Shown in pieces: positions 42,590 through 58,079 of a DNA stretch of 64,000 bases. How positions within the stretch are numbered: the stretch's first letter is position 1; every line of letters begins with the position of its first letter. This DNA comes from Nocardia nova SH22a (lineage in GTDB: Bacteria > Actinomycetota > Actinomycetes > Mycobacteriales > Mycobacteriaceae), in contig NZ_CP006850.1 in NCBI RefSeq assembly GCF_000523235.1, positions 3,720,001 to 3,784,000 on the forward strand. Reading direction: 5' to 3'. A model generated the notes under the pieces. That model had not been told where the DNA came from and ran no database searches. It was given only the letters and a program-made list of their open reading frames with translations. The position numbers and the translations under genes are program-made.

Positions 42590-45500
42590 ATGAGGTCATT
42601 GGCCACCGATCGTGTCGACCAATGTGCTTCCGGCGAATTTTCAGCACAACCCTTCGCTCTGTCACCGGCGCAAACAGCCCTGTGGTACGCGCAGCGGATC
42701 CAGCCCGAGGTGCCACTGACCATCGCCCAATATGTCGAGATCCATGGTGATCTCGATGTCGGCCGGTTGCTCTACGCGATCGAACGGTTCGGCGCCGAGG
42801 CGCAGGTGGGTCAGCTGCGGCTGCTCGAGATCGACGGTGTGCCGCATCAGGTCGTCGACGCCGCGCAGCGGCCCGGCTGGGCGCGGATCGATCTGCGGCA
42901 GGAGGAGGATCCGCACACCGCCGCGCTGCACTGGATGAACGACCACGCCAGCAGCCCGATCGATCTGGAACGCGATCCGCTGACCGTCAACGTGGTGCTG
43001 CGAACCGGCGATCACGACTACATCTGGTACGCGCGCAGCCATCACATCGTCATCGACGGATACGGCGCCATGAACGCGCTCACCCGCACCGCCGAGATCT
43101 ACACCGCCCTGGAGAATCAGACCGAGCCCGTCGTCTCGCGTGCGGCCACGCTGGCGGAGATCTACGCCGGTGAATCCCAGTACCGCGAATCGAGCCGCTT
43201 CCGTTCCGATCAGCAGTACTGGCGCGAGCAACTCGACGGTGTCGGCACCCCGCTCACCTTGTCGGCCACCGGTATCGGCACCCCGGCGCCGGATCCGGGC
43301 CGCCGCATCGCCGCCGCCACCCTCGGCGCGGAGGTGGAGGCCGAATTGGCCACGGCCGCAAGCGTCTTCGAGTCGCAGAACTCCGCGCTGTTCGTCGCCG
43401 CGCTGGCCGGATACGTCCGCGCGGCCACCGGCACCCGGGACGTGGTGCTGAGCCTGCCGATGTCCGCGCGCACCACGGTCGCGCTGCGCCGCTCGGCCGG
43501 TGTGGTGTCGAATGTGGTGCCCATCCGGGTGCGTTTCGATGCCACGACCACCGTCGCCGACGTGGTCAAGGCCACCGAACTGCAGATCACCGGCGCGCTG
43601 CGGCATCAGCGCTACCGGCACGACGACATCCGGCGCGACTGCGGCTATTCCCGTGATGCCCGCGGATTCTTCGGGCCGATGGTCAACATCATGCTGTTCC
43701 ACAGCGAACTGCACTTCGGCAGCCTGGCCGGATCGTTCAACGTGCTGTCCACCGGGCCGGTCGAGGATCTGTCGATCAACCTCTACAACGGTGCGGGCGG
43801 GCGCATCCACATCGACTTCGAGGCCAATCCCCGGCTCTACGGCGCCACCGAGCTCACCCGGCACCACCAGCGCTTCCTCGACTATCTCACCCGCTTCCTC
43901 ACCGCCGACCCGGCGGCGCCGATCGCCGGTGTCGCCGCGCTCACCGACCGGGAGCGCGAGCAGGTTCTGCACACCTGGAACGCGACCACGGCGCCGGTGC
44001 GGCCGGGGACGCTCTCCGATCTGTTCGGCGCGCAGGCGCGGGCCACACCCGATGCGATCGCGCTCGAATTCGAGGGCGCCACCCTCACCTACGCGGAGCT
44101 GCGGCGGCGCGCGGATCGCCTGGCGCGCATCCTGATCGAGCATGGCGCGGGCCCGGACACCGTCGTCGGGCTGGCCCTGCGGCGCAGTCTCGACCTCGTC
44201 GTCGGCATGTACGCGATCGTGCGCGCGGGCGCCGCCTATCTGCCGATCGATCCCGACCATCCGGCCGAACGCACCGCGCACATCCTCGACCAGGCCGCGC
44301 CGCTGTGCGTGCTGGCCGCCGGTCGCGACCAGGCCGCGCTCGCGGCGGGGGTGCCGGTCCTCGATCTGGCCGATATCGACCTCGACAGCCCGGACCCCGC
44401 GGCCGACGCGCCGATCACCGACGCCGACCGCCGGGCCCCGCTGCGCGGTGAGCACCTCGCCTACGTCCTGTTCACCTCCGGATCGACCGGAAAACCCAAG
44501 GGCGTCGGCATCACTCACGCCGCGATCGTGAACCGGCTGACCTGGATGCAGCACCGATACCCGCTCGACGGGACCGACGCCGTCCTGCAGAAGACCCCGG
44601 CCACCTTCGACGTGTCGGTGTGGGAGTTCTTCTGGCCCTTGCAGATCGGCGCGCGGCTGGTGATCGCCGCCCCGGACGGCCATCGCGATCCCGACTATCT
44701 GGCCCGCGTCGTCGCCGAGTGTGGAATCACCACCGCTCATTTCGTCCCGTCGATGCTGTCGGTCTTCGTCACCGACACCGACGTGCGCGACTGCGGTGGG
44801 CTGCGCCGGGTGTTCTGCAGTGGCGAAGCCCTGCCCGCGGCGACCGTCCGCGACTTCCACGCCCTGCTTCCCGGCGCCGGATCGTCCGGTCCGCGGCTGC
44901 ACAATCTGTACGGGCCCACCGAGGCGGCCGTCGACGTCACCCACTGGACGTGCGCCCCGGAGAACGATGTCGTCCCGATCGGCGCGCCGGTCTGGAACAC
45001 CCAGGTCTACGTTCTCGACGACATGCTGCGGCCGGTGGCGCCGGGCGCGGTCGGGGAACTCTATCTGGCCGGGGTCCAGCTGGCCCGCGGCTATCTGGGC
45101 CGCCCCGCCCTGACCGCCGACAGATTCGTCGCCAACCCGTTCACCCCGGGGGCCCGCATGTATCGCACCGGCGATCTGGTGCGGTGGCGGATGGATCCGA
45201 TCCCACCCGCGGGCGCCGACTCGACGGTGCCGCCCGCGCTGGAGTACCTGGGGCGCAGCGACTTCCAGGTCAAGATCCGCGGACAGCGCATCGAACTCGG
45301 TGAGGTCGAGGCGGCGATGCTGGCCGATCCGCGGGTCGCCCGTGCCGTCTGCGTCGCCCACACCGGCACTGCCGGTGACGAACTGGTGGGCTACGTCGTG
45401 GCCGCGCCGGGACACGAGGTGGACGGCGCCGAGGTCGTCGCCGCATTGCGCGGGGCGCTGCCCGGATACATGGTGCCCGCGGTGGTGGTCGTCCTCGACG

Positions 45501-57192: not shown

Positions 57193-58079
57193 GTACCGCG
57201 GAGGTTGCGGTCGCCGAACCGGAAACACCGGCGGGAACCGCCGAGGCCGCGGGGCGGCGCGACGCGGAGGTCGAGACGATCCCGGCAGCGGTCCGGATCT
57301 TCCGCGACAGCGCCATCATCGCCTACCGCAATCTGGTGACCATCCTGCGGGTTCCGACCCTGCTGGTCACCGCCACCATCCAGCCGCTGATGTTCGTCTT
57401 CCTGTTCGCCTACATCTTCGGGGCCTCGCTGGGCGGCGGCCAGTACCGGGAATTCCTGCTGGCCGGGATCTTCACCCAGACCGTGGCCTTCAACGCCGCG
57501 TTCACCACCGTCGGCCTGGCCAACGATCTGCAGAAGGGCATCATCGACCGGATGCGGACGCTGCCGATGTCGCGGATGGCGGTGCTGATGGGGCGCACCC
57601 TGTCCGACACCGTGGTCAACGTCCTCGCGCTGGCGGTGATGGTGGGGTGCGGATATCTGGTGGGATGGCGGATCAACGGCTCGGTCGCCGACGCGGCGCT
57701 GGCCTTCGCGCTGCTGCTGTTCTTCGCCTTCGCGATGTCGTGGGTGGGCGCCCTGACCGGACTGGTGTCGCCGACCGTCGAGGTCGCGCAGAGCGCGGGC
57801 CTGATCTGGATGTTCCCGCTGACCTTCATCTCCTCGGCGTTCGTCTCCGCCGAGACCCTGCCGGGCCCGCTGCGCACGGTCGCGGAGTGGAATCCGATCA
57901 CCGCCGTGTCGGCGGCGGGTCGCAAGCTGTTCGTCAACGACTCACCGCCGTCGTTCGGCACACCGCACGGCTGGCCCGCGGAGCACTGCGTCGAATACGC
58001 GCTGCTGTGCTCGGTGGTGATCCTGGCGGTGGCCGCGCCGCTGGCACTGCTGCAGTACCGCAAGGTCGCCAGCCACTAG
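57189..58079 (+). CDS. DrrB-like ABC-2 type permease
   Basis: 296 residues, GTG start overlapping the ATPase stop. Soluble N-terminal tail (about 1-45), then six membrane helices (about 60-290) with the ABC-2 signature region FLLAGIFTQTVAFNA and LPMSRMAVLMGRTLSD. FISSAFVSAETLP before the last loop is typical of DrrB. It pairs with the upstream ATPase to form the exporter. Confidence 0.93.
   Translation: MSTAEVAVAEPETPAGTAEAAGRRDAEVETIPAAVRIFRDSAIIAYRNLVTILRVPTLLVTATIQPLMFVFLFAYIFGASLGGGQYREFLLAGIFTQTVAFNAAFTTVGLANDLQKGIIDRMRTLPMSRMAVLMGRTLSDTVVNVLALAVMVGCGYLVGWRINGSVADAALAFALLLFFAFAMSWVGALTGLVSPTVEVAQSAGLIWMFPLTFISSAFVSAETLPGPLRTVAEWNPITAVSAAGRKLFVNDSPPSFGTPHGWPAEHCVEYALLCSVVILAVAAPLALLQYRKVASH

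Follow-up and report, generated by a model that had tools for sequence, protein, structure and literature searches.

The window analysed here, 64,000 nucleotides from Nocardia nova SH22a (RefSeq assembly GCF_000523235.1, contig NZ_CP006850.1, positions 3,720,001 to 3,784,000; host genome 8,348,532 bases in one contig), contains a gene for a large non-ribosomal peptide synthetase (NRPS), followed by two genes for an exporter of the DrrAB type. The NRPS reading frame (42587-56206, plus strand) comprises 4539 amino acids; the likely start is an ATG at 42590 with GGAG six bases upstream, giving a gene of 42590..56206 that encodes 4538 amino acids. Pfam models match four Condensation, four AMP-binding and four PP-binding domains and one Thioesterase domain, and purpose-built hidden Markov models (HMMs) place them in the order C-A-T-C-A-T-C-A-T-C-A-T-TE, or (C-A-T)x4-TE, where C is condensation, A adenylation, T carrier and TE thioesterase. 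The four modules described in an earlier note on this DNA are thus borne out. Neither Pfam nor the purpose-built HMMs detect an epimerization (E) domain in the NRPS. In the translation, C1 to C4 carry the active motifs HHIVIDG, HHICGDG, HHIAADG and HHIAMDG, GGNSL is present in all four T domains, and the TE contains GWSLGG.

Module 1 consists of a starter-type condensation domain, C1 (residues 23-460; 42653..43966), assigned from HMM, trees and fold search, followed by A1 (44000..45580) and the HMM-detected carrier domain T1 (45602..45799). Modules 2 (C2-A2-T2, 45857..48994), 3 (C3-A3-T3, 49052..52156) and 4 (C4-A4-T4, 52214..55345) lie downstream on the same plus strand, and the line ends in a type I thioesterase (55379..56167), recognized by Pfam, HMM and structure match and predicted to release the chain. 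To read the substrate codes, 412 A domains were aligned with the motif positions of GrsA as anchors. A1 has the serine code DVWHFSLVD, identical to that extracted by the same script from Escherichia coli EntF (L082), in agreement with the earlier note; Lys (K) is the tenth residue of the code. The codes of A2 (DALFIGMVA), A3 (DALFMGGIV) and A4 (DALFLGVIV) resemble, to our knowledge, none that can be named with confidence. In the C-domain tree, C2 (of LCL type), C3 and C4 fall among domains that follow a T domain, whereas all 11 after-E domains lie in a separate clade of 21 tips; an all-L peptide is therefore expected. Among solved structures, 7crn ('Non-ribosomal peptide synthetase 4'; 181 bits) comes nearest to the TE, with the EntF TE next (84 bits), and these matches do not separate acid from lactone release. 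In the protein collection, the NRPS most similar to this one is a Nocardia nova entry, 99% identical across residues 1-470.

The gene for the DrrA-type ABC ATPase (329 amino acids; 56203..57192, plus strand) starts with the GTG at 56203, sharing 4 nucleotides (GTGA) with the end of the NRPS gene. It overlaps in turn, again by 4 nucleotides, with the gene for a DrrB-like ABC-2 permease (57189..58079, plus strand). The ATPase exceeds the cut-off of the DrrA model TIGR01188 (335 vs 312 bits); the permease falls below that of the DrrB model TIGR01247 (68 vs 223 bits) but exceeds that of ABC2_membrane (PF01061), and is thus classed only as an ABC-2 permease of DrrB type. The exporter proposed in the earlier note is present to this extent. 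Pfam models found no MbtH, stand-alone carrier or AMP-ligase in 50 of the window's other open reading frames (ORFs), a part of those on both strands, and an MbtH HMM gave no match across the six frames of the window (at least 40 amino acids). This supports the view, also taken from the earlier note, that the starter unit must come from elsewhere.

Conservation in Nocardia and related genera

The earlier note had called the NRPS an orphan. A strain-specific orphan is rejected, both by a published gene cluster family discussed below and by the distribution of the gene. Module 1 has a match in all 150 Nocardia genomes, with 64-100% identity in 145 of them. Three further genomes (G018, G067 and G129) show split matches of 70-74%, and G109 has matches of 69% and 56% at contig edges. 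In G054 (1,340 contigs) identity is 57% or less, and the orthologue is undecided. An NRPS orthologue is thus present in 149/150 Nocardia genomes, in G109 by parts, G054 being too fragmented to tell.

The window and 36 other Nocardia loci were examined in detail. The complete (C-A-T)x4-TE is found in 35/37, the remaining two being cut by contig ends. A1 reads DVWHFSLVD in all 36 loci that hold it, A2 reads DALF[I/M]GMVA in 37/37 and A4 reads DALFLGVIV in 31/37; A3 is the most variable of the four. All 36 other loci have drrA, drrB and rbpA (58147..58512 in the window, minus strand) downstream of the NRPS, and 31 have lnt upstream, contig ends explaining two of the five misses. The common Nocardia order is therefore lnt-NRPS-drrA-drrB-rbpA. 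After loci with split or short matches were dropped, pairwise distances of module 1 tracked those of lnt (r=0.80; 27/36 loci), drrB (r=0.83; 34/36) and drrA (r=0.79; 34/36), values reached by 0/999 permutations in each case, which argues for mostly vertical descent with the neighbouring genes. In locus L028 the HHxxxDG motif of the first C domain reads HHIVIDAYGA, with Ala at the position of the conserved Gly.

The cluster fits the published gene cluster family (GCF) 4 (Maennle, 2020; PMC7413640). As described in the sections of that paper available here, GCF 4 is present in all Nocardia and comprises one four-module NRPS, predicted to use Ser and three unpredicted aliphatic or aromatic residues, with two transporters and a putative N-acyltransferase, and no product is given. 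By this description it is the same cluster, with four modules, Ser first, two transporters and a genus-wide distribution. The text of the paper mentions neither MbtH nor DrrA. Komaki (2014; PMC4035055, line 25) likewise reported a four-module NRPS common to seven Nocardia strains, its product not predictable, which is likely to be this gene, the comparison resting on the available description, which gives no domain codes. Among related bacteria, Rhodococcus NRPSs with C-starter domains are described in the accessible part of PMC5550956, some of them in clusters that also have no ligase gene; in the Rhodococcus loci compared in the current study (L033, L039, L046, L052 and L065), module orders and codes differ from those of this NRPS. 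In L033 and L046 a larger NRPS, with nine A domains in the part examined, adjoins rbpA. The cluster is thus known but its product is not: the literature searched (titles, beginnings of abstracts and passages) holds no product name for it. Relative to GCF 4 as set out in those sections, the occurrence in other genera, the loss of mbtH, a three-module sister and the reading of the starter pocket are new.

When 401 genomes of the same GTDB family were searched for DrrB, relatives appeared in many genera, and 20 regions chosen from the best DrrB matches were examined, 19 of them outside Nocardia. Twelve, from eight genera (g9, g11, g13, g14, g15, g16, g19 and g26), encode a four-module NRPS, and in one (L098, g20) the NRPS region is cut by the contig. 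Two encode a three-module NRPS without the serine module (L106, g6; L107, g30), and five (L100, L108, L109, L112 and L113) contain no such NRPS. A1 is exactly DVWHFSLVD in 6/12 of the non-Nocardia four-module loci and one or two letters off in the other six. The same cassette is present in Williamsia soli (L042) and Gordonia sp. OPL2 (L077). The three-module NRPSs (L106 4238-14851; L107 3200-14566, minus strand) have a related starter C domain and DrrAB, with mbtH behind drrB in L107. In L105 (1445-15339) the four-module NRPS lies in two overlapping frames, with the break between C2 and A2, which may be a sequencing error or a true division of the gene. L100 (g18) encodes a DrrAB 64-67% identical to that of the window, with no NRPS within the 20 kb examined; the exporter may have been kept without the synthetase, or the synthetase may lie elsewhere.

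Outside Nocardia, mbtH lies between the NRPS and drrA in 13/14 four-module loci (the exception is L101), and in the cut locus L098. The MbtH HMM found it in 0/37 Nocardia loci. Its absence therefore looks like a lineage loss (14/15 vs 0/37). The spacing of the genes differs: in 26/36 Nocardia loci the NRPS and drrA share 4 bases, and in the other ten they are 16-237 bases apart. In non-Nocardia loci where mbtH is a gene of its own, 231-435 bases lie between the two. MbtH is encoded somewhere in each of the 15 cassette genomes tested, and the host genome has two MbtH genes outside the window. In the simplest history, we infer, mbtH was lost on the Nocardia branch and the two remaining genomic copies supply MbtH in trans. 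In L095 (genus g15, genome 66% complete), a single open frame (1063-15609) covers the NRPS and, after its TE, an MbtH domain; the two may be naturally fused.

Starter domain and predicted product

In C-domain trees, thinned by 23 of the 37 Nocardia loci, C1 groups with starter domains and not with LCL or DCL domains, and the fold ranking agrees. An ordinary LCL domain is therefore rejected, and the EntF-like first C domain of the earlier note is upheld. The residue at the gate of the acyl pocket (138) is Ala in C1, as in the C8-loading HolA, whereas EntF has Phe.

The best explanation, and a fairly probable one, is that this single-gene assembly line makes an acyl-CoA-primed lipotetrapeptide, acyl-Ser-X-X-X, which is exported by DrrAB and has a standing physiological role. 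A1 would load L-Ser onto T1, and C1 would acylate the Ser amine. The most likely direct donor is an acyl-CoA of medium or long chain length drawn from general metabolism, which would make a dedicated ligase or carrier unnecessary. C2-C4 would add three hydrophobic L-residues, and the TE would release the peptide, either in linear acid form or closed to a lactone through the hydroxyl of Ser, for export by DrrAB. As the cassette's mbtH appears to have been lost in Nocardia, MbtH would assist in trans. The vertical, genus-wide upkeep of the gene points to a role at the cell surface or as a surfactant rather than as a strain-specific antibiotic. Of this picture, the sequence shows the architecture, the serine code, the starter type, the overlap of the exporter genes, the conservation and the lack of mbtH; the acyl donor, residues 2-4, the mode of release, the export of this product and its role are deduced.

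Several observations weigh against an acyl-CoA donor. The gate rule is derived from one enzyme family, ObiF1 also has a small residue at 138 (Ser), and Ile143 of C1 is not small. A focused tree, which holds only four characterized references, places the C1 clade as sister to EntF and ObiF1 (ultrafast bootstrap 96). With 30 sequences of this tree, a grouping of C1 with RzmA (p 0.024) or with RzmA and CDA (p 0.015) is rejected by approximately unbiased (AU) tests, but one with CDA alone (p 0.06) is not. EntF and ObiF1 use aryl donors, and the trees put C1 no nearer to the acyl-using domains of RzmA and CDA than to these two. In the fold search ObiF1 is the top match of C1, RzmA and CDA rank together with it and EntF far lower. 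RzmA and CDA have, like C1, a starter C fold at the head of the line, and CDA also starts on Ser, but their identity to C1 is about 30%, their gate residue is Arg or Met, and the trees place C1 nearer to EntF and ObiF1.

EntF itself shares with this NRPS the starter C domain, the serine-specific A domain that follows it, the terminal TE and an MbtH partner (ybdZ adjoins entF). It differs in having one module instead of four and Phe instead of Ala at the gate, and there is no aryl ligase beside this NRPS; the NCBIfam EntF model NF007605 stays under cut-off (1958 vs 2400 bits, summed over four stretches). By EntF logic, C1 could take a salicyl or dihydroxybenzoyl (DHB) group from a carrier made elsewhere, giving a siderophore-like aryl-Ser-X-X-X. 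Because the C1 tree favours EntF and ObiF1, and serine is also EntF's residue, such an aryl cap is possible, and the host genome has two salicylate synthases over cut-off. It also has two aryl-AMP-ligase-like genes, above 580 bits but under cut-off. Such ligase-like genes (553-709 bits, under cut-off) occur in 14/15 cassette genomes, which also counts against an acyl-CoA donor. Salicylate synthase is missing (at E 1e-60), however, from 5/15 cassette genomes and present in 10, a DHB-AMP ligase over cut-off is found in 0/15, and G251 has no aryl-AMP-ligase-like gene above 368 bits. The gate residue of C1 is not Phe or Leu. In addition, nocobactin clusters are reported from 92/101 Nocardia and GCF 4 from all, in the available sections of PMC7413640. 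The aryl-acid starter idea is thus weakened, and an aryl cap appears unlikely.

A daptomycin-type lipopeptide, primed by acyl-ACP (acyl carrier protein) from a fatty acyl-AMP ligase (FAAL)/ACP pair encoded elsewhere, would suit the starter fold common to the first C domain of CDA and C1, and the host genome has many AMP-ligase matches. It is nevertheless improbable: the scanned window ORFs include no AMP-ligase or stand-alone carrier, FAAL not having been searched for at other loci. That the NRPS is the second half of a longer line, in which a separate NRPS hands an aminoacyl or peptidyl chain to C1 in trans, is very improbable despite the many NRPS modules of Nocardia genomes, as C1 lies in the starter clade, apart from most after-T domains, and the 12 non-Nocardia four-module regions (18-20 kb each) contain no second NRPS gene.

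More tentatively, the lipotetrapeptide could be an ancient lipid-peptide of the bacterial family to which Nocardia belongs. An NRPS-mbtH-drrAB cassette would predate the split of Nocardia, Gordonia and Williamsia, its product would be an unrecognized, Nocardia-wide envelope or surface component, and in two further genera the three-module, serine-less sister would correspond to it. To maintain a gene of 13.6 kb, as 149/150 Nocardia genomes do and as is also seen in eight more genera, carries a cost, and the product is therefore probably important to the cell. Which lipopeptide Nocardia make genus-wide, and for what purpose, is a testable question, and the loss of mbtH is a natural experiment on how MbtH is supplied in trans.

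Neighbouring genes

The lnt gene (27931..29541, plus strand) lies 13 kb from the NRPS in the window. No other gene in the genome matches LNT_N, so that it is probably a housekeeping gene, and probably not part of the NRPS pathway; on the same ground, Lnt is unlikely to be a dedicated tailoring enzyme. The putative N-acyltransferase of GCF 4 is probably this gene. An ABC pair at 36755-40437 and the other genes at 29.7-41.1 kb were also rejected as cluster members, because in N. kruczakiae (L024) lnt adjoins the NRPS without them.

The 13-kb block between lnt and the NRPS (29271-42187) encodes an MFS protein, AraC and TetR proteins, a substrate-binding protein, a hydrolase and an ABC half-transporter pair. 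It is flanked by a direct repeat of 250 bp (29271-29520 and 41940-42187; 90% identity) that corresponds to the 3' end of lnt. This block is missing in N. kruczakiae L024, and in L003, L004 and L005 the 8-10 kb upstream of the NRPS contain no complete lnt; the lnt-NRPS gap may therefore be an insertion hot spot.
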